Shown piece by piece: positions 5,339-24,603 of a stretch of DNA of 33,566 nucleotides. The position numbers and the translations under genes were made by a program. The DNA lies in NCBI GenBank assembly GCA_027623205.1, contig JAQBYC010000048.1, positions 1 to 33,566 of the forward strand. The letters are read 5' to 3'. The notes beneath the pieces were generated by a model that saw nothing but the letters and a program-made list of their open reading frames with translations, was not told the DNA's origin and did no database searches. This DNA comes from Pseudomonadota bacterium (GTDB lineage: Bacteria > Pseudomonadota > Alphaproteobacteria > GCA-2731375). The first letter of the stretch is position 1, and the number at the start of each line of letters is the position of its first letter.

Positions 5339-5737
5339 CTATTTCCGGCCGCTCAGGGCGCTGATCACATCGATCAGCATGGTCTTGCTCTCCGCCTCTA
5401 TCTTGGCAGTGTGTTGGGTCTGTTCATGGCGCATTCTTGCACTGATGTGATGCAACTCCGCAAGGCGCTGCAGTTCCGCCTGATGATTGTCCAGCAAGCG
5501 CTCAATCTCGACATGATGGCGGTCCATCAGGTCCGCAATCACGGCCTTCAAATCCGCGACTTGCGCCGCATGTAATTGTTTCAGGTCGGCGATGCGCGCC
5601 TGATTCAAGACCTGCAGGGGATCCATTAGCTCGGGTGTCGGGGCCGCAAGGGTGGAGTGCGTCTCCGAAACGACAGCTGTGTCATCGGCGGGCGCCTGCC
5701 CCCCGCGCCGTCGTCTTCCTCTGGCATTGCAGCCCAC
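5339..5737 (-). CDS. Coiled-coil C-terminal half of a frame-split HTH protein
   Basis: This reading frame (132 residues from GTG 5737) is dominated by a long charged helix, with heptad-like leucines through QARIADLKQLHAAQVADLK and on to the end, and probably forms a coiled coil. The GTG has no Shine-Dalgarno sequence and lies inside the preceding frame, so independent initiation is doubtful. Joining it to the upstream frame at the six-G run gives a 202-residue protein with an N-terminal helix-turn-helix and a C-terminal coiled coil, a sensible architecture for a DNA-binding dimer. I do not recognise a named family. It could also be the tail of a gene broken by one lost base. Confidence 0.6.
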   Translation of the reverse strand: MGCNARGRRRRGGQAPADDTAVVSETHSTLAAPTPELMDPLQVLNQARIADLKQLHAAQVADLKAVIADLMDRHHVEIERLLDNHQAELQRLAELHHISARMRHEQTQHTAKIEAESKTMLIDVISALSGRK

Positions 5738-5946
5738 GCCACTGGCGAGGTAACGCCGGCGCGGACGTAACCCGTCAAATCATAAGGGGTTCGGACAAGA
5801 ACCCGGCCATCCGGGTCAACCCGGGTCCCAATAGCCTGGCGGGACATTCGCAAGCGCAAAATTTCATCGCTGACGCCCAGTACGGCAGCGGCATCGGCTA
5901 CCGGCAGCCAGCGCGCTTGGCTATCGCCGATTGGGTCAGTTGACAT
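5626..5946 (-). CDS. Helix-turn-helix N-terminal half of a frame-split protein
   Basis: The first 58 residues hold a MerR/excisionase-like helix-turn-helix: RWLPVADAAAVLGVSDEIL, a second helix RLRMSRQAIG, then a wing-like strand pair DPDGRVLVR. From about residue 84 the frame becomes arginine- and proline-rich (RRPPMTQLSFRRRTPPLRPR), typical of out-of-frame reading in this genome. That suggests the native frame is left at the six-G run at 5704-5699. A -1 shift there joins residue 83 to the coiled-coil frame. Its start ATG 5946 has no strong ribosome binding site. It is not in an obvious operon; lsrF follows on the same strand. Confidence 0.6.
   Translation of the reverse strand: MSTDPIGDSQARWLPVADAAAVLGVSDEILRLRMSRQAIGTRVDPDGRVLVRTPYDLTGYVRAGVTSPVAWAAMPEEDDGAGGRRPPMTQLSFRRRTPPLRPRHPS
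5698..5706 (-). other. Six-G run forming a possible -1 slippery site
   Basis: On the minus strand the upstream frame reads GCG GGG GGC here, so G GGG GGC fits the X XXY YYZ heptamer used in -1 ribosomal frameshifting. Slipping back one base leads straight into the coiled-coil frame. A homopolymer indel, real or from sequencing, is the simpler alternative. Confidence 0.5.
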
Positions 5947-6070
5947 TGCCAGGGCTCACGGAACGGGCCTTTCGAAAAAATAACCTACCCGATTGTAGCC
6001 ATCCAAGACCACCAAACGCCAATGCGTGTTGGCCGCAGGGTTGTCGATCAGTGTGTTTGTGCTAAAGCCG

Positions 6071-6418
6071 CTAGGCGACGCGGAAACTCTCGCCGCAGCC
6101 GCAACGGTCTGCTTCATTGGGATTATTGAAGACAAAGGTGGACTGGAACTTGTCGACCTTGAAATCCATTTCGGCGCCGACGAGGAACATGATGGCCGTG
6201 GGATCGATGAAGACTTTCACGCCATCGGTTTCCACTTCTTCCTCGAATCGCTTCTTTTCCCTGGCGTATTCGACTTCATACATCAGACCCGAACAACCGC
6301 CTGTTTTGACGCCGACGCGCAGGGCAAGAACGTCACCGTCGCTACGCACCATCAATTCCTTGGCGCGCGCGATCGCCGCTGCCGTCATCGTTAGTACCGG
6401 TGGTCTTTCCATGACCAT
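6071..6418 (-). CDS. sufA: A-type iron-sulfur carrier SufA/IscA
   Basis: This 115-residue A-type carrier has the three invariant cysteines: C42 in GGCSG and C106/C108 in RCGCGES. It receives or delivers Fe-S clusters, and possibly iron, between the SufBCD scaffold and target proteins. The start ATG 6418 has AGGGAA a few bases upstream; a second ATG two codons later has no such site. It is the last gene of the suf operon, 53 bases after sufT. That gap holds a perfect GCGCCAA/TTGGCGC palindrome, so expression here may be modulated separately. Confidence 0.93.
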   Translation of the reverse strand: MVMERPPVLTMTAAAIARAKELMVRSDGDVLALRVGVKTGGCSGLMYEVEYAREKKRFEEEVETDGVKVFIDPTAIMFLVGAEMDFKVDKFQSTFVFNNPNEADRCGCGESFRVA

Positions 6419-6437
6419 GTTTCCCTATTCCCCAATA

Positions 6438-6453
6438 GCGCCAAGTTTGGCGC
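6438..6453. repeat. Palindrome in the sufT-sufA gap
   Basis: GCGCCAA (6438-6444) and TTGGCGC (6447-6453) are perfect complements with two bases between. As RNA this would be a short hairpin in front of sufA; as DNA it could be a binding site. No T-tract follows on the minus strand. Confidence 0.4.
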
Positions 6454-6471
6454 AGTTATCTTGACACAACC

Positions 6472-13651: not shown

Positions 13652-15244
13652 CTATGCCGCGTCCTCCAGCACCATATCGGCAGCTTTTTCGCCGATCATC
13701 AGGCAGGCGGCATTGGTGTTGCCCGATACCAGCGTCGGCATGATCGAACCGTCCGCCACGCGCAGGCCAACCATGCCGCGCACCCGCAGGCGTTCATCCA
13801 CCACGCCACGATCATCGGGACCCATGCGGCAGGTGCCCGTGGGATGATAGGTGGTCTCCGCTGTACGGCGGATCCAGTCCAGCGTCGCGTCGTCGCCCTG
13901 GATCGCCGCGCCTGGCGCCTCTTCCACGCCGCGGAAGGCATTCATGGCCTGAGTATTCATCAGGTCCCGGGTCCAGTGGGTGCCATCCAGCAGACAGCGA
14001 CGGTCCAGTTCGGTCGACAGAAAATTGAAGTTGATGGCCGGATCTACATTGGGATCGGTGGACTTGATATGGATGCTGCCCAAACTTTCCGGCCGCATTT
14101 GATAGACCGTGGCGATCATCCCCGGCTCGGGGCCCAGGCGCCGGGCGTTCGGGTCAGTGTACCAATAGGGCACCAGGTGAAGCTGTACATCGGGGCTTTC
14201 CATTTCAGGCCGGGTACGCATAAAAGCCAGCATGGGCGCCGAGGGCAGGGATAGAAAGCCTTTCCGAGTCAGGGCATAGCGCAGGATCTGCCAGCCCAGG
14301 CCAAGGCCGCTGGCGCGGTCGTTATAGGTGACCTTGGGTTGGGTGACGCGCCATTTCAAGCGCGGGGCAATATGATCACGCAGGCTTTCGCCAACGCCCG
14401 CCAGATCGTGGCGTACTTCGATACCATGACCGCGCAGGCGCTCGGCCTGGCCGATGCCGGATAGTTCCAGCAATTGCGGTGATTTGATGGAGCCGGCGCA
14501 GAGGATGACTTCACGGCCCGCTCTGGCTTCTATCGTCTGGCCATTGGCCCTATAGGCGACGCCGACCGTGCGCTTGCCTTCCAGCAACAACCGTTCAACC
14601 AACACTTCTGTCTCGACCGTCAGATTAGCCCGGGTCATGGCCGGCTTTAAATATCCGGCGGCGGCGGAGGCGCGTTTGCCATTTCGGATAGTGGTCTGGG
14701 TCTTGCACATGCCTTCCTGGCTGGCGCCGTTGTAATCCTGGTTGCGGGGCAGGCCGACTTCGGCCCCGGCGGCGAACCAGGCGTCATAAAGGGGACTTTC
14801 GTCAGGGCATTCGCTGACATGGATCGGGCCGCCCGCGCCGCGAACGCCGTCATCACCGCGCTCAAAATCCTCCAGCTTACGAAAGTAATGCTGGACACTG
14901 TCAAAGTCCCAGCCCCGGTTGCCCTGCTGGGCCCAGGTGTCGTAATCCAACGGCTGGCCGCGCACATAGACCAGACCATTGATGGCCGAGGAACCGCCCA
15001 AAACCTTGCCCCGGGGCACCGCGATGGCCCGATTGGCGGTGTTCTCCTCAGGCTCCGAGCGGAAGCGCCAGTTGGCCGCCGGATTATCGATCAGTAAACC
15101 GAAGCTGATCGGGAAGGATGTCCAGATATTGCTGCGCTTGCCCGCTTCCAGGACCAGGACCTTGTGCCGGCCATTGGCGGTCAAACGATTGGCCAATACG
15201 CAACCGGCGGATCCGGCACCGACGATAATATAATCGTATTCCAT
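13652..15244 (-). CDS. GMC-family FAD-dependent oxidoreductase (choline/alcohol dehydrogenase-like)
   Basis: The 530-residue flavoprotein starts with the FAD dinucleotide fold YDYIIVGAGSAGCVLANRL (residues 3-21) followed by LVLEAG. It contains the GMC signature PRGKVLGGSSAINGLVYVRG, a second signature CAGSIKSPQLLELSGIG, and the active-site H467 (YHPTGTCRMG) with N511 (SGNTNAACL). These enzymes oxidise primary alcohols or choline-type substrates to aldehydes. The substrate is not evident; BetB and BetI are not nearby, so an annotation as choline dehydrogenase would be unsafe. It appears to be a single-gene unit. Confidence 0.92.
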   Translation of the reverse strand: MEYDYIIVGAGSAGCVLANRLTANGRHKVLVLEAGKRSNIWTSFPISFGLLIDNPAANWRFRSEPEENTANRAIAVPRGKVLGGSSAINGLVYVRGQPLDYDTWAQQGNRGWDFDSVQHYFRKLEDFERGDDGVRGAGGPIHVSECPDESPLYDAWFAAGAEVGLPRNQDYNGASQEGMCKTQTTIRNGKRASAAAGYLKPAMTRANLTVETEVLVERLLLEGKRTVGVAYRANGQTIEARAGREVILCAGSIKSPQLLELSGIGQAERLRGHGIEVRHDLAGVGESLRDHIAPRLKWRVTQPKVTYNDRASGLGLGWQILRYALTRKGFLSLPSAPMLAFMRTRPEMESPDVQLHLVPYWYTDPNARRLGPEPGMIATVYQMRPESLGSIHIKSTDPNVDPAINFNFLSTELDRRCLLDGTHWTRDLMNTQAMNAFRGVEEAPGAAIQGDDATLDWIRRTAETTYHPTGTCRMGPDDRGVVDERLRVRGMVGLRVADGSIMPTLVSGNTNAACLMIGEKAADMVLEDAA

Positions 15245-17845: not shown

Positions 17846-18601
17846 TTAGCTTTTGGGTGGTTTACCCGGACGACGTAAATCCCGGGTTGCGGTCTGGATG
17901 TGATGATCCATGGCCGACCAGGCGGCGGCGGCATTGCCTGTTTTGATGGCGGTAAAGATTGCCTGATGCTGTGACAGTGAGGTCCGGGCCAAGCCCTTGG
18001 CGCGGTCCGGTGACAGGGTCAACCGTTCGGCAATCCAGGTTTGGATCTGCCCACGGATTACATTGATCAGGCGATACAGGATTCTATTCTGCGTGGCGCG
18101 GGCAATTTCAAAATGAAAGGTCGCGTCAAACGCCTGAAATTGCGCGGGATTATTCAAATGCTCGGCCATGCCGTGGATGGTTGCCTCTATCGCAACTAGA
18201 TTTTCGGGCTTCGCACGCATGGCTGCCCAATGGGCGGCGTTGGTTTCCAGCATGTGGCGGGTTTCCACCAGATCATCTCGGCCCTCGAGGTCCAGCAAGA
18301 GACCCCACTCCAGTGGCTTTTGAAACTGCCCGGTTTCGGCTGCGATATAGGTGCCGCTGCCCGCCCGGCCTTCAAGGATGCCCATGGTGATCAATGGTTT
18401 TAGGGCTTCACGCACGGAGGTGCGGCCAACCCCGAAGGTCTTGCACAATTCCCGTTCCGAAGGCAGCCGGTCGCCCGGTTTGAGGACGCCGGTGGAGATC
18501 AGGTGCCATAGTTGATCCACGATGGCTTCGCTAACCCTGGCCCGTCTGATTCGAAGAAACGGTGCTGCTCTTGCAGCTATTGGGTCGGCTATTTGGGTCA
18601 T
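17846..18601 (-). CDS. GntR-family regulator, FadR/FCD subfamily
   Basis: The 251-residue regulator has a GntR winged helix-turn-helix (about 20-88: VDQLWHLISTGVLKPGDRLPSERELCKTFGVGRTSVREALK) and an all-helical FCD effector domain. The histidines of the usual FCD metal site are recognisable in FDATFHFEIAR, SLSQHQAIF and MDHHI. Such proteins usually bind a carboxylate or metabolic intermediate and release DNA. The gene is divergent from a corrinoid methyltransferase operon. A perfect palindrome of the class recognised by this subfamily lies 52 bases from its ATG, so it very likely represses that operon and itself. The inducer may be the operon's substrate or product. Confidence 0.92.
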   Translation of the reverse strand: MTQIADPIAARAAPFLRIRRARVSEAIVDQLWHLISTGVLKPGDRLPSERELCKTFGVGRTSVREALKPLITMGILEGRAGSGTYIAAETGQFQKPLEWGLLLDLEGRDDLVETRHMLETNAAHWAAMRAKPENLVAIEATIHGMAEHLNNPAQFQAFDATFHFEIARATQNRILYRLINVIRGQIQTWIAERLTLSPDRAKGLARTSLSQHQAIFTAIKTGNAAAAWSAMDHHIQTATRDLRRPGKPPKS

Positions 18602-18652: not shown

Positions 18653-18673
18653 AAAATTGGTCTGACCAATTTT
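18653..18673. promoter_or_regulatory. Perfect GntR/FadR-type operator palindrome
   Basis: Arms AAAATTGGTC (18653-18662) and GACCAATTTT (18664-18673) are perfect complements around a single T. The core TTGGTC-N-GACCAA is the known operator type of FadR-subfamily regulators such as PdhR and LldR. It lies between the divergent GntR gene and the five-gene methyltransferase operon. Promoter boxes are weak on both sides. Confidence 0.8.
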
Positions 18674-18735
18674 GATCTTTAGGCACTGGTTGCGTCAAGT
18701 CTGGATGTGAACAGGTCCAGGGTGGGAGAGTTTCG

Positions 18736-19380
18736 GTGGTGGATCCATTCGCCGGTCTTGGAAAGCGGGTCGAGCTGGTCTCGACCGACAAGTACTTCCG
18801 CGACATTTCTATTGGCCTTTATGCCCGTGAAGATGCCGGTGGGTGGATTTTCCGGGTGCGCAGCTTCGCCCGTTATGACGGTCTCGACGATCGTATTGGC
18901 TTTATTGTCGGCGCGATGCAGACCCTGGGCGGCATGCAACAGGCGGCAACGGATACTTTGCGTTTTCCCTGCGGCAGCGAGCATTTGGTTGCCGTGCGGC
19001 GGTTGTTTTTGCAGGCCTGCAAGGAAAAACCTGAAACGACAGTCGGCGCGCCGGCGCTATCCCTATGGGACAAAAAATCTGAATTAACCGTCAAGGCTCT
19101 GGGTCTGGGGCAGGGGGTCTACGCCCTGTCGGCCGACGGTGTGGCGGAAAGTGATCAAATCAAGCGGCGGCTAAATGCCTTGCGCAACGCCTTGGTGAAA
19201 TTGGCTGACGCCGAGGCTGACGAGATGCATGGTGAACGCTTCTGTTTTTCCTGCGGGCAGGCACACGATCCGCTGGTCGGTCTGTTGTTGCAGGCGGCCC
19301 CCAATGTCCGCGCCATCATGCGGGAACACGAAATGAATGCGGCCCGTGGCGTCCTGGCGGCGCCGGGCAATCAGAACTAG
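18736..19380 (+). CDS. Unrecognised protein, first gene of the corrinoid operon
   Basis: I do not recognise this 214-residue protein. It has no signal peptide or membrane segment. The N-terminal half looks like a mixed alpha/beta domain (KRVELVSTDKYFRDISIGLY, GWIFRVRSFARYDGLDDRIG). The C-terminal part is helical and holds FCFSCGQAH (about residues 177-185), a C-x2-C-x2-H cluster that might bind zinc or iron; two further cysteines are in RFPCGSE and LQACKE. The start is GTG 18736 (or 18739), with GGGAGAG just upstream. It precedes the methyltransferase gene by nine bases and shares its operon. It could be a substrate-specific accessory or even the methyl-donor-handling subunit, but this is guesswork. 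Confidence 0.7.
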   Translation: MVDPFAGLGKRVELVSTDKYFRDISIGLYAREDAGGWIFRVRSFARYDGLDDRIGFIVGAMQTLGGMQQAATDTLRFPCGSEHLVAVRRLFLQACKEKPETTVGAPALSLWDKKSELTVKALGLGQGVYALSADGVAESDQIKRRLNALRNALVKLADAEADEMHGERFCFSCGQAHDPLVGLLLQAAPNVRAIMREHEMNAARGVLAAPGNQN

Positions 19381-19389
19381 GAGGGGCCC

Positions 19390-20439
19390 ATGGCACAACA
19401 GCAGAACGGACAGGCAATTCCGGCCATGACCAGCCGGGAACGGGTGCTGGCCGCCCTGCGGGGGCAACCGGTGGATCGCACACCGGTCTGTTGCCCAACC
19501 TCGGTCGCCACGGTGGAATTAATGGACCTGGTCGATGCGCCGTTTCCCGACGCCAACCGACAGGCCGAGCCCATGGCGCGTCTGGCCGCGACGGCCCATA
19601 CAATCCTGGGCTTTGACAGTGTCATGCCGGTGTTCTCCATAATTCAGGAATCTTCGGCGCTGGGCTGCAAGATGCAGTGGGAGGGCAAGGATAATTGGCC
19701 GACAGTGCGCATGAGCGAGCCGATCTGGGACAGTCCGGACGATATTTATGTGCCCAACGATCTGATTGAGCACCCCGATACCAAATGCGTGCTGGACGCC
19801 ATCAAGTTGTTGCGCCAGGAGTTGGGCGCCGACGTCGCAATCATAGGCAAAACCATGGGGCCGTGGTCGCTGGCCTACCACTGCTTTGGCGTGGAAAAAT
19901 TCCTGCTGTTGTCCCTGGACGATCCGGCGGCGACGAAGGAGATATTGGCGAAATTAAAGAAGGTCACCATCGATTTCGGGAATGCCCAGATTGAGGCCGG
20001 AGTTGATGCCCTGACCTTGCCCGACCATGCCACCGGCGATCTGGTCAGCGGCGAATATTACCAACGATATCTGCGCGATCTTCATATTGAGTTCGCCGAG
20101 CGTATTCCCTGCCCCCTGATCTTGCATATCTGTGGCCGCACCGTTGATCGTATGGGCTTTATCGCCGAGACCGGCATGGCCGCCTTTCATTACGATTCGA
20201 AAAACAAACCGGGCGAATCCATGGACACCGTGGCCGGGCGCATCGCACTGGTGGGCAATATAAACAACCCCGAAACCCTGTTCTCGAAGGGCCCCGATGA
20301 CGTGAAAGCCGAGGTCTTTGCCAACCTGGACGCAGGGGTTCAGATGATCGGCCCCGAATGCGCCATTCCCTTGCAGACCTCCATCGCCAACCTGCGCGCC
20401 ATACCCGAGGCGGTACAGGAATGGCATGCCCGGCATTGA
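19390..20439 (+). CDS. Corrinoid-dependent methyltransferase, MtaA/CmuA (UroD-fold) family
   Basis: The 349-residue protein belongs to the uroporphyrinogen-decarboxylase-fold methyltransferases. It opens with MTSRERVLAALRGQPVDRTPV, has TGDLVSGEYYQRYL, and carries the zinc ligands H246-x-C248 (LHICGRT) and C324 (GPECAIPL), matching the H-x-C-xn-C site of MtaA/MtbA, which activates a thiol. It also has ALVGNINNPETLFSKG. Archaeal MtaA moves methyl from corrinoid to coenzyme M; the CmuA N-terminal domain moves methyl from chloromethane to corrinoid. Since coenzyme M is not expected here and a folate methyltransferase is encoded downstream, a substrate-to-corrinoid role is more likely. The ribosome binding site (AGGAGGGG) overlaps the previous gene's stop. 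Confidence 0.9.
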   Translation: MAQQQNGQAIPAMTSRERVLAALRGQPVDRTPVCCPTSVATVELMDLVDAPFPDANRQAEPMARLAATAHTILGFDSVMPVFSIIQESSALGCKMQWEGKDNWPTVRMSEPIWDSPDDIYVPNDLIEHPDTKCVLDAIKLLRQELGADVAIIGKTMGPWSLAYHCFGVEKFLLLSLDDPAATKEILAKLKKVTIDFGNAQIEAGVDALTLPDHATGDLVSGEYYQRYLRDLHIEFAERIPCPLILHICGRTVDRMGFIAETGMAAFHYDSKNKPGESMDTVAGRIALVGNINNPETLFSKGPDDVKAEVFANLDAGVQMIGPECAIPLQTSIANLRAIPEAVQEWHARH

Positions 20440-20496
20440 GCTAGATTTTCATCCCATCATGCTGATCCATCTTTTTAATGAAACGGTAGCGGAACA

Positions 20497-21246
20497 ATGG
20501 CGGAATTAAGCGATGTCCAGAACCAGACACTCCGTGACGAGATAGAGGAGTATCTTGAGCGGCCCGAGGAAATCGCGCGCTTTATCGAGCTCTTCGCCCG
20601 CGCTAAACCTGCCTTGCAGGAAATTGCCGCGGCGATTGTCGAGGGCGATGACGCCGCCGCCGATCGTCTGACCGTGGCCGCCCTGGAGCAAGGCATCGAA
20701 GCAATCGAAATCATGGACGATGGCCTGATCGGTGGCATGGGCATCGTCGGCATCAAGTTTCGCGAGAATTTCGTATTCGTACCGGAAGTGTTGAGTTGCG
20801 CGCGGGCCATGCGGGCCGGCATGGCGCATATCGAGCCGATCCTGTCGGCCGCGGGCGTCGAGAAGCACGGCACCGTCATCATGGGAACGGTGAAGGGTGA
20901 TTTGCATGATATCGGCAAGAACCTATGCATCATGATGCTGCGGGGTTCCGGCTTTGACGTCATAGATCTGGGCGTCGATGTGGCCGAGGATGCCTTCATA
21001 GACGCGGTGGAGCAAAGCGGCGCCAGGGTGTTGGGCATGTCCGCCCTACTGACCACCACGATGCCCAACATGGGCCGGACGATCGAGGCCTTTATCGATG
21101 CCGACTTGCGCGATGAGGTGCAGATCATGGTCGGGGGGGCGCCGGTTACACAGGAATTCTCGGACGATATGGGCGCCGACGGTTATGGCGCGGATGCCTT
21201 GAGCTGCGTTGCCGTGGCCAAGGAATTGATGACGGCCGTGGCCTAG
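20497..21246 (+). CDS. Methyltransferase corrinoid protein (MtbC/MtaC-like)
   Basis: This 249-residue stand-alone cobalamin carrier has an N-terminal helical cap (about 35-120, ending VFVPEVLSCARAMRAGM) and a Rossmann-like B12 domain. The base-off/His-on motif is GDLHDIGKN with H137 as lower cobalt ligand, followed by LGVDV, the MSALLTTTM loop and GGAPVT. It would shuttle methyl between the UroD-fold protein and the folate methyltransferase encoded on either side. The first 30 residues are an acidic extension. It lies 57 bases after the methyltransferase gene. A CmuA protein would have this domain fused; here it is separate. Confidence 0.93.
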   Translation: MAELSDVQNQTLRDEIEEYLERPEEIARFIELFARAKPALQEIAAAIVEGDDAAADRLTVAALEQGIEAIEIMDDGLIGGMGIVGIKFRENFVFVPEVLSCARAMRAGMAHIEPILSAAGVEKHGTVIMGTVKGDLHDIGKNLCIMMLRGSGFDVIDLGVDVAEDAFIDAVEQSGARVLGMSALLTTTMPNMGRTIEAFIDADLRDEVQIMVGGAPVTQEFSDDMGADGYGADALSCVAVAKELMTAVA

Positions 21247-21274
21247 GGCCGCTTGAAGGCAGGAAAGACAGCGC

Positions 21275-23245
21275 GTGGCCGGGCCGGCGAAAAAAGATTA
21301 CCAGCAGCGTCTGGATCAAATTACCGAGATATTCGCTGATATCATGGGCGAAGCCCAGGATCATCTGCAGGGGCAGGGACGCTGTCCCTACCGCACTGCC
21401 AAGGATATCTGCACCGCGAAATTCGGTTGCGCCAACCGCGCGCGGCCGGGCGCCAGGGATGCCGCGCCCATCTGCGCCCACGACGGTACTTTGGACTTTC
21501 GCAGTGCCTGGGAAAGCCGGCCGGAGAGTTATCGGAAAACCAGGGATAAAATCGAACAGGTGCGCCTGCAGGCTGCGGCAAAACGCGGCCAAGCACAAGT
21601 GGGCGGGCATGAAGACCGCCGCGCCGGCATGGAAGGCAAGGCGGCCGAAACGCAGACCCTGTTCGACCGGGCCGATGTTGGCGGGCTGCATCTGGCCAGT
21701 TCCTGTGGCCGCTATGGCGATTGCCACGAATGCATCGTCACCGTGAACCAGGGAATGGAGGCCCTGGCCCCGCGCACGGAGGCGGAAGCGTTCCTGCCCG
21801 AACATTACCGTCTTGCTTGTCAGGCGGAAATTATCGACGCCGGCGCCGAGATCACGTTCGAGCCATTGATCCGCGCGCCGCGTATTTTGCAAACCTCGTT
21901 CGAAAAACCCATCAGCCTGGCCCCGGCTGTTACGCGACGGAACGGGGAGGTCTTGCGTGACGGTGAGGTGATCGATAAGTACCGGGGCCATATTCTTGGC
22001 TTGGCGATTGATCTTGGCACCACCACCGTGGCCGCGAACCTGTTCGATCTGCAAAGCGGCGCATGCATCGCCATGGCGTCTTTTGAAAATCCGCAACGAT
22101 TTGGCGGCAGCGATGTGATGCATCGGATCTCGTACGATGGTGGTCCGCACCGGGGCGAAATGCACAAGGTCATCATCAACGCCCTGAACCGGGAGATCGA
22201 GGGACTATGCGGGCGGTTTGCCTTCAATCGCCGGGAAATTTACGAAATCGTGGTGGCGGGCAACTCCACCATGCGGGATCTTTTCTTCAATGGTGATGTG
22301 CAACCCATCGGCCAACGCCCCTATAAATCCCCGGTGGAGCTGGCCTTTATGGCCGGTGAACGGGACAGCACGGCGCTGGTCGTGGAAGCGCGGAAACTGC
22401 GCCTGCGGGCGCATCCGAAATGTCTGGTGCATGGCCTGCCCTTGATCGCCAGCCATGTGGGCGGGGATGCCGCCGCCTCGCTGTTGGCCCTGGATATCTC
22501 GCCCGACGACGACGATGTGGTGATGCTGGTCGATATGGGCACCAATACGGAAATTGCGCTCGCCGGCCGGGGCCGCCTGATGGTCGCCTCGTGCCCCGCT
22601 GGACCGGCCTTCGAGGGCGGGTTGGTGCGCCACGGCATGGCCAGCTACGACGGCGCAATCGAGGCCGTCAGCGAAAGCGACGACGGCGGCTTTCAATGGC
22701 GCACCATTGGCGATGTGGCCCCGCTGGGCCTATGTGGCTCTGGCCTGATTGACCTGCTGGCGGTGCTGCGGCGCACGGACCGCATGAATGAAAAAGGCGC
22801 CCTGGCGCGTGATAAGGGCAAACGCAATGCTGAAATTCTGATTGCGCCGCACGCGGCATCGGGCAAATCAATCACTATTTCCGGCCTGGATATCAGCCAT
22901 CTGGCCCAGGCCAAGGCGGCCTCTCATGCCGGACAGAATATTCTGATGCGGCGTTTTGGCGTAGGCGCGGATGACATCAGCCGCCTGTATCTGGCGGGGG
23001 GGTTTGCGTCCCATGTGGATTTCCACAATGCGGTGGAAATTGGCCTGCTGGCGCCGGTTGCGAAAGACCGCATGGTTAAGGCCGGCAATAGCGCACTGTT
23101 GGGCGCGGGCGAAGCCTTGTTGAACACGGGCCGGCGGGCGTACCTGGAACAATTGGTGCGTCGGGCGGAACATGTGGAACTGGAAAGCGAGGCGAATTTC
23201 TTCGAGATCTTCGTTGAAGCCTGCTTTTTCAAGCCGATGCAATAA
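21275..23245 (+). CDS. RACo-type ATP-dependent corrinoid activator with extra Cys-rich N-terminus
   Basis: This 656-residue protein restores inactive Co(II) corrinoid to Co(I) at the expense of ATP. A plant-type [2Fe-2S] domain has C144, C150, C153 and C182 (C-x5-C-x2-C-x28-C). It is followed by a linker and an ASKHA-fold ATPase starting at LAIDLGTTTVAANLF (243-257), with VAGNSTMRDLF, MLVDMGTNTEIAL, APLGLCGSGLIDLL and LYLAGGFASHVDF. Unlike most RACo proteins, which begin with the ferredoxin domain, this one has about 130 residues first. These include C37, C46, C52 and C67 (CPYRTAKDICTAKFGC), possibly a second metal site. The GTG start at 21275 has AGGAAAG upstream, and the gene is 28 bases after the corrinoid protein gene. 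Confidence 0.9.
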   Translation: MAGPAKKDYQQRLDQITEIFADIMGEAQDHLQGQGRCPYRTAKDICTAKFGCANRARPGARDAAPICAHDGTLDFRSAWESRPESYRKTRDKIEQVRLQAAAKRGQAQVGGHEDRRAGMEGKAAETQTLFDRADVGGLHLASSCGRYGDCHECIVTVNQGMEALAPRTEAEAFLPEHYRLACQAEIIDAGAEITFEPLIRAPRILQTSFEKPISLAPAVTRRNGEVLRDGEVIDKYRGHILGLAIDLGTTTVAANLFDLQSGACIAMASFENPQRFGGSDVMHRISYDGGPHRGEMHKVIINALNREIEGLCGRFAFNRREIYEIVVAGNSTMRDLFFNGDVQPIGQRPYKSPVELAFMAGERDSTALVVEARKLRLRAHPKCLVHGLPLIASHVGGDAAASLLALDISPDDDDVVMLVDMGTNTEIALAGRGRLMVASCPAGPAFEGGLVRHGMASYDGAIEAVSESDDGGFQWRTIGDVAPLGLCGSGLIDLLAVLRRTDRMNEKGALARDKGKRNAEILIAPHAASGKSITISGLDISHLAQAKAASHAGQNILMRRFGVGADDISRLYLAGGFASHVDFHNAVEIGLLAPVAKDRMVKAGNSALLGAGEALLNTGRRAYLEQLVRRAEHVELESEANFFEIFVEACFFKPMQ

Positions 23246-23277
23246 ATCACCATCGACAATGCGTAGAGGAAGCGCTC

Positions 23278-24315
23278 ATGAAGATTGACGGGATGGATCG
23301 CGAGTTCATTGTTATTGGCGAGAATGTGCATACCACCCGCGCCCTGTTGCGGCGCAACAAGCGCGTCACCACGGACGAGGCCGGTGCCGATGTCATTAAC
23401 TATGTCACGCTCTCCGGGGAAGAGCGTTCTCTGCCAATTCCAGAGGCAATCAAAGCGACCCAGGATTTTCAGGAGGGCCGTGTTAAGCATTTCAAGGCCG
23501 CCCTGCAACAGGCCATGTTCGGCACCGGCCCGGCGCAGGCCGAGGGGCTTTGCTATATCCAAGCGATCGTTGAAAAACAGGAGGCCGCAGGCGCTGACTA
23601 TCTTGACGTCAATGTGGATGAGGTCTCGCTAAAAAAGGAAGAACAAATAGAGGCCATGCAATGGCTGACGGGCAGGGTGCAGGATCTGGCGACGCGTCCC
23701 CCGTCCATTGACTCATCCGATATCGACGTCATTGCCGCCGGGCTGGCCGTCTATGATGGACGCAATGGCCCGGCCATGCTGAATTCGGCTTCTTTGGAGC
23801 GTCCCACGGCCCTTGATTTGGCACAACAGTTCGGCACCACGGTTATTGTGACGGCATCGGGCCAAAGCGCCATGCCCGACGGCGCCGCAGGCCGGGTCGC
23901 CAATGCGACAACGATGATAGAGGCCGCCCTGGCAAAAGGCATCCCGGCCACTGACATATATCTTGATCCGCTGGTCTTTCCCGTTTCAGTGGATCCCGAG
24001 TTTGGCCGCCACTGCCTGGACGCCATAACCGAAATCCGGCGACGCCATGGCCCGGACATACATATCACGGGGGGCATTTCGAACGCCTCATTCGGCGTTC
24101 CCGCCCGCAAGTACATCAACGAAGCCTTTTTGCGCCTCGCGGTGCAGGCTGGGGCCGACAGCGGCATCATGGACCCGGTACAAAACGATCCCAACATGGC
24201 GCTGGCGCCGGGCACACCATCGAATGCCATCGCCCTGGCCATGGACGTGGTTTTGGGCCGGGACGCGGATTGCGCTACTTATATCAAGGCCTGGCGCAAG
24301 AAAGAACTGGCTTAG
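23278..24315 (+). CDS. Methyltetrahydrofolate:corrinoid methyltransferase (MeTr/CmuB-like)
   Basis: The 345-residue protein is a pterin-binding TIM barrel of the MeTr/dihydropteroate-synthase-like family. It has IGENVHTTRALL (13-24), the folate-binding DVNVDE (110-115) and GGISNASFGVPARKYIN (265-281), with MLNSAS and YLDPLVFPVS between. MeTr and CmuB move a methyl group between corrinoid and tetrahydrofolate. In this operon the likely direction is from methyl-corrinoid to tetrahydrofolate, feeding C1 metabolism. AGAGGAAG lies seven bases before ATG 23278. It is the last gene of the operon; only a weak GC-rich stem (24316-24338) follows. Confidence 0.92.
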   Translation: MKIDGMDREFIVIGENVHTTRALLRRNKRVTTDEAGADVINYVTLSGEERSLPIPEAIKATQDFQEGRVKHFKAALQQAMFGTGPAQAEGLCYIQAIVEKQEAAGADYLDVNVDEVSLKKEEQIEAMQWLTGRVQDLATRPPSIDSSDIDVIAAGLAVYDGRNGPAMLNSASLERPTALDLAQQFGTTVIVTASGQSAMPDGAAGRVANATTMIEAALAKGIPATDIYLDPLVFPVSVDPEFGRHCLDAITEIRRRHGPDIHITGGISNASFGVPARKYINEAFLRLAVQAGADSGIMDPVQNDPNMALAPGTPSNAIALAMDVVLGRDADCATYIKAWRKKELA

Positions 24316-24527: not shown

Positions 24528-24603
24528 GGGCGGTTAGCTCAGATGGTAGAGCGCCTCGTTTACACCGAGGAAGTCGGCGGTTCGATCCCGTCACCGCCCA
24601 CCA
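24528..24603 (+). tRNA. tRNA-Val (anticodon UAC)
   Basis: A full cloverleaf can be folded. The acceptor stem is GGGCGGT with ACCGCCC, the D arm starts TAGCTCAGATGG, and the anticodon stem CCTCG/CGAGG encloses TTTACAC with anticodon TAC. The T arm contains GTTCGATCC. The discriminator is A and CCA is encoded (24601-24603). TTTTTCTTG follows and may aid termination. Confidence 0.96.

Follow-up and report, generated by a model that had tools for sequence, protein, structure and literature searches.

A modular corrinoid methyl-transfer operon with an MtaA-like UroD-fold protein and an orphan probable partner protein, recurrent in several bacterial phyla

The 33,566-nt stretch of contig JAQBYC010000048.1 analysed here (the window, to which all coordinates refer except those attached to a locus label) comes from an alphaproteobacterial genome of 5.0 Mb in 228 contigs that is 97% complete. 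It includes five genes on the + strand at positions 18736–24315, separated by gaps of 9, 57, 28 and 32 bases. A sequence-only reading of this DNA had described five co-directional, closely spaced genes forming a modular corrinoid methyl-transfer operon, and both the domain assignments and the recurrence of the genes elsewhere bear this out. The first gene, g1 (18736–19380), has a GTG start and encodes an orphan protein of 214 aa. It is followed by uroD (19390–20439) for an MtaA-like corrinoid methyltransferase of the UroD fold (PF01208, 4.8e-65), and by genes for a corrinoid (B12-binding) protein (20497–21246; PF02310 and PF02607; PDB 1y80, 8e-59), a RACo-type ATP-dependent corrinoid reductive activase (21275–23245; Raco_middle, RACo_C_ter and Fer2; PDB 3zyy, 5e-74), and a MeTr-like methyl-corrinoid:tetrahydrofolate methyltransferase (23278–24315; Pterin_bind, 1.4e-22). 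Divergent from these lies a gene for an LldR/NanR/PdhR-like GntR/FCD regulator (17846–18601, − strand; Pfam GntR 5.8e-20 and FCD 6.2e-23). The perfect palindrome AAAATTGGTCTGACCAATTTT (18653–18673) sits between it and g1. Position 18653, where the region had originally been taken to begin, is thus the first base of this palindrome and not a gene start.

The UroD protein scored 247.8 bits with TIGR01463, which represents the MtaA/CmuA subfamily (cut-off 235.4), and fell below the equivalog cut-offs for MtaA (247.7 vs 400 bits) and MtbA (193.6 vs 600 bits). Its nearest characterised relative is MtaA of M. mazei (32% identity), which was also the top Foldseek match (E 8e-24, template modelling score 0.87) of the predicted structure (predicted local distance difference test score, pLDDT, 79.6). 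Three Acetoanaerobium Mlps are 21–24% identical to the UroD protein, and a CmuA-like UroD-corrinoid fusion from one other alphaproteobacterial genome (G343) is 21% identical; the locus of this fusion (L123) is cut off at the contig end. The zinc ligands H246, C248 and C324 (H-x-C...C), previously noted as intact, are invariant across the family, and the HICG and P-x-C motifs are kept in 86 of 86 relatives. In the aligned zinc columns, H-C-C is found in the UroD protein, MtaA and the Mlps, and H-P-S in the G343 CmuA. In the phylogeny that the sequence-only reading had called for, which includes few references and only one CmuA, the UroD protein and its relatives form a clade of their own (support 100/96) and join no characterised single-substrate clade; as the reference branches are saturated (length 5–10), only the unity of the UroD clade is taken from the tree. 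The genome encodes one further strong UroD match, presumably HemE.

The g1 protein has no Pfam or NCBIfam match and no convincing sequence match in the PDB. In its AlphaFold model (pLDDT 92.3, predicted template modelling score 0.87), the order of strands and helices is repeated, and the two halves align with each other by profile (hhalign E 9e-11), revealing an internal duplication. A C-x3-H motif occurs once per half (C79/H83 and C173/H177), among the invariant residues. No match to a known fold stood out with Foldseek (best E 0.42), and the best VIA-align result (Z 7.7) covers the first half only and is inside the stated noise range of that tool. Accordingly, no fold is claimed for g1 either way. 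Our guess is that g1 binds a metal or the substrate beside the UroD protein.

The UroD protein was found in 11 of 385 alphaproteobacterial species (74–94% identity when the window's own genome is left aside), and the order g1-uroD-corrinoid-RACo is identical in all 11 genomes. A search of 372 genomes with a g1 profile retrieved exactly the same 11. In phylum samples, the UroD protein was present in 1 of 398 Pseudomonadota, namely the window's own genome, and in 3 of 297 Acidobacteriota. Across 84,980 species genomes, 301 stretches were found to encode UroD relatives, and the best 80 of these (72–95% identity to the UroD protein) are the named loci. According to the labels of the metagenome-assembled genomes, these 80 derive from Alphaproteobacteria, Betaproteobacteria, Acidobacteria, Gemmatimonadota, Latescibacterota, Poribacteria, Verrucomicrobia and Phycisphaeraceae, or seven phyla by label; errors in binning or labelling could inflate single phyla, and the pattern spans many independent genomes. 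The system is therefore wide but sparse in its distribution. Relatives of UroD carried on plasmids are merely 24–30% identical, and a search for g1 relatives in plasmids found none.

In 79 of the 80 named loci, g1 precedes uroD in the same orientation (median gap 27 bases; the exception is L108). The genes for the corrinoid protein and RACo come next in about half of them, and 36 loci hold a lone g1-uroD pair. In a few Poribacteria with lone pairs, the corrinoid and RACo genes are located elsewhere in the genome, and in most cases a homocysteine methyltransferase gene follows directly behind these corrinoid and RACo genes. g1 looks like an obligate partner of the UroD protein. The proposed survey of co-occurrence thus found the genes together in other genomes of several phyla, and, as many phyla share the gene set and its order at the amino-acid level, the operon is more than a chance arrangement. 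In one acidobacterial locus, a protein matching PF13769 ('Virulence factor'; L163:10665–11096) adjoins g1, and this name probably hides a corrinoid methyltransferase partner. Other neighbouring genes were judged to reflect lineage synteny, namely those for MazG, GroEL, a GMC dehydrogenase, an aminopeptidase and SUF in the window, and the conserved beta-lactamase-like, pyrroloquinoline quinone and dockerin genes in Poribacteria.

The GDLHDIGKN motif of the corrinoid protein is kept in 53 of 53 relatives. RACo has the 2Fe-2S domain and the RACo middle and C-terminal ASKHA domains that characterise the family. Among 52 relatives, 50 have a CPY-x6-C-x5-C...C pattern in the N-terminal ~115 residues, and this Cys-rich N-terminus (21275–21620 in the window) is encoded by a separate small gene in other alphaproteobacterial families (L034 and L037). 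The MeTr-like protein, which by eye has ~60 extra residues near the N-terminus, is closest in the PDB to 4o0q, 4o1e and 4o1f, and then to MeTr 2yci. Downstream of the core, the loci of relatives include MeTr, a homocysteine methyltransferase (PF02574), or both. The latter is encoded in 15 loci, with the GGCC zinc motif in 14, and a methylenetetrahydrofolate reductase (MTHFR) with a DUF5981 domain in 12. Hence, the constant core consists of g1, UroD, the corrinoid protein and RACo, and the acceptor module is exchangeable. The earlier suggestion that the system feeds methyl-tetrahydrofolate is corrected in that folate is not the sole sink, many relatives having a homocysteine methyltransferase in place of MeTr or in addition to it. 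An operon on a plasmid of the cultured species Gemmatirosa kalamazoonensis (L160:5619–11836) encodes a different UroD-fold protein, a corrinoid protein, RACo, a 407-aa protein and a homocysteine methyltransferase, and adjoins a gene resembling those for short-chain dehydrogenases/reductases. This is another modular donor system; at 20% identity it is not a member of the UroD clade and supports the modularity only.

A divergent gene for a GntR/FCD-like regulator is found opposite g1 in about 20 loci from several phyla. The motif TGGTC[TA]GACCA is present in 15 of 23 gntR-g1 spacers, compared with 0.45 expected by shuffling, and the matches span Alphaproteobacteria, Latescibacterota and Gemmatimonadota; those within one genus are not independent, and the argument is carried by L071, L073, L078, L099, L111 and L116 outside it. 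The GntR/FCD protein probably regulates the operon, with TGGTCTGACCA as its putative target. FCD regulators usually bind organic acids. In two Poribacteria, genes for a tripartite ATP-independent periplasmic (TRAP) T-component and a DctP solute-binding protein lie directly upstream of the corrinoid gene (L161:4218–6184 and L164:12690–14638), preceded in L164 by a GcvT-family gene. Together, the FCD regulator and the TRAP/DctP genes weakly suggest that the substrate is an organic acid.

In the mechanism proposed here, the UroD protein and g1 would demethylate a small compound bound through the His-Cys-Cys zinc site, most probably a methyl thioether, methyl thiol or selenium analogue, and transfer the methyl group to the Co(I) centre of the corrinoid protein. 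From there, the MeTr-like protein would hand it on to tetrahydrofolate for one-carbon oxidation or methionine synthesis. In relatives, a homocysteine methyltransferase that replaces or supplements MeTr would make methionine directly. RACo would re-reduce oxidised cobalt using ATP, and the GntR/FCD repressor would leave the TGGTCNGACCA operator once its ligand is bound; this ligand is probably a substrate-related organic acid. Taken as a whole, a substrate-inducible modular corrinoid demethylation system, with UroD and g1 on the donor side and a methyl-S or methyl-Se donor as the likely substrate, is the interpretation towards which we lean with modest confidence.

The direction of transfer is suggested by the acceptors. 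Since the acceptor varies while the core stays, g1 and UroD would form the donor-side unit. Six genomes with UroD (G745, G746, G747, G749, G750 and G751) encode the corrinoid protein, a homocysteine methyltransferase and a complete MetH, and have no stand-alone MeTr or folate domain. In these, the methyl group would most simply enter via UroD and g1, and we infer that UroD acts on the donor side. Were the flow reversed, methyl-tetrahydrofolate would charge the corrinoid protein and UroD would methylate homocysteine or another thiol, as in SCMT-like enzymes; the system would then be a thiol methylase or a split methionine synthase. MtaA, the characterised protein nearest to UroD, does work in the acceptor direction, MTHFR genes are often in the cluster, and full-length MetH is missing from G744 and G752. 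However, a complete MetH is encoded in the window's genome and in 10 of 12 others that carry the system, a dedicated homocysteine methyltransferase stands beside UroD in 15 loci, the six genomes above lack a stand-alone MeTr, and the divergent regulator is predicted to respond to a ligand; reversed flow is thus considered unlikely. Several points nevertheless weigh against the donor-side assignment and the substrate proposed with it. The His-Cys-Cys site also occurs in thiol-methylating enzymes such as MtaA and so does not fix the direction, and the argument from the six genomes would not hold if the homocysteine methyltransferase drew its methyl group from S-methylmethionine. In G744 and G752, methionine synthesis could depend mainly on part of the cluster. 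Further, no substrate-specific neighbour gene was found at the operon, and the TRAP genes were seen at only two of the remote Poribacterial clusters, where they may be lineage synteny.

As for the donor, no MttB (PF06253) was found in 7 genomes tested, among them the whole genome of the window, which extends the earlier observation that the operon has no MttB-type enzyme. Given the closeness to MtaA, the His-Cys-Cys site and the absence of MttB, the likeliest donor is a methyl-S (or methyl-Se) compound, which may be an organic acid. ComA (PF02679), which represents the ComA route of coenzyme M biosynthesis only, is absent from the window's genome and from 4 of 6 others; coenzyme M is therefore unlikely as an acceptor in the former. 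A methyl halide, one of the donors first suggested, would require a split CmuA/CmuB system. The TIGR01463 MtaA/CmuA cut-off is exceeded and CmuA also feeds folate, but the fused G343 CmuA is 21% identical, differs in its zinc columns and seems to fall elsewhere in the tree with its saturated reference branches, and the examined loci encode UroD and the corrinoid protein in separate genes, which leaves dehalogenation very improbable. A UroD-fold methyltransferase I that O-demethylates methoxylated compounds (aromatics or methyl sugars), as in Acetobacterium and Moorella, would use an identical four-part architecture; the MeTr-like protein is nearest to PDB entries 4o0q/4o1e, and aromatic acids or uronates are among the ligands that FCD regulators can recognise. 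Yet the profile score and structure group the UroD protein with the MtaA/SCMT type, and His-Cys-Cys marks the S-methyltransferases of the superfamily, the S/Se enzymes keeping the Cys ligands that O-demethylases replace (PMC10418091). A methoxylated aromatic donor, also among the original suggestions, is accordingly disfavoured, and we rate O-demethylation as quite improbable. Kinases of the APH family with a weak resemblance to methylthioribose kinase are encoded beside or near the operon in ten loci from Latescibacterota, Gemmatimonadota and others (e.g. L084:3118–4119), and betaproteobacterial L104 has two (13886–14905 and 5482–6459). A hint at methylthioribose from such a kinase was not used, its score being 57 bits against a methylthioribose kinase cut-off of 275.

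The operon thus represents a real, widespread and coherent system with a new obligate-looking subunit, g1, and may be a route, widespread yet overlooked, for the use of methylated compounds. The broader proposal, which we rate about as likely as not, is an undescribed demethylase class spread over about seven phyla. In it, an S-methyl enzyme of the MtaA type would depend on a g1-family protein for substrate binding, metal loading or protection from oxygen, and would discharge into folate or methionine. If correct, a demethylation route relying on a kind of enzyme until now associated with methanogens and anaerobes would have gone unnoticed in uncultivated bacteria of sponges, ocean, soil and groundwater, tapping a pool of methylated, likely sulfur, compounds and linking methyl use to folate or methionine. 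The g1-uroD pair would then be one clear marker of the system. Automatic annotation would name the UroD protein a coenzyme M methyltransferase, probably wrongly.

Immediately 3' of the operon is a tRNA-Val gene (tac, 24528–24603), and a short tRNA-like piece, gcgcgcttagctcag, at ~24315 is a possible insertion trace.

A literature search among open-licence papers found no description of this cluster, and it can be compared with several known systems. Like the coenzyme M methyltransferases MtaA, MtbA and MtsA, the UroD protein has the UroD fold and His-Cys-Cys, with 32% identity to M. mazei MtaA; it differs in its non-methanogen hosts, its g1 and MeTr or homocysteine methyltransferase partners, its sub-equivalog scores and, in the window's genome, the absence of ComA. 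An MtaA-like protein, a corrinoid protein and a reductive activase are likewise combined in type 1 mlp clusters, which are described mainly from Firmicutes anaerobes and are defined by two or more Mlps and the lack of a folate methyltransferase within 20 kb (PMC10418091). The present operon falls outside this definition, having one Mlp together with MeTr and g1, and occurs in other phyla. In MtgBCDE of Ruegeria pomeroyi, a single corrinoid protein is shared by glycine betaine demethylation and by the folate (MtgD) and methionine (MtgE) modules, in a similar modular layout with a reductive activase (PMC12478193). Some relatives' loci with both MeTr and PF02574 resemble it in gene content, the window's operon having no PF02574; however, the donor enzyme there is of the MttB family (PF06253) and here UroD-fold with g1. 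The chloromethane system CmuA/CmuB and CdmBCA likewise combine a donor enzyme of the UroD fold with partners for corrinoid and folate (PMC13222342), but CmuA is fused to its corrinoid domain, whereas here the genes are separate and the identity is 21%, and CdmB has no zinc (PMC13222342), whereas the UroD protein keeps the ligands. Unlike the O-demethylases OdmB, VdmB and MtvB, it shows no carboxylate or lost ligand, Cys being kept in all 86 relatives.

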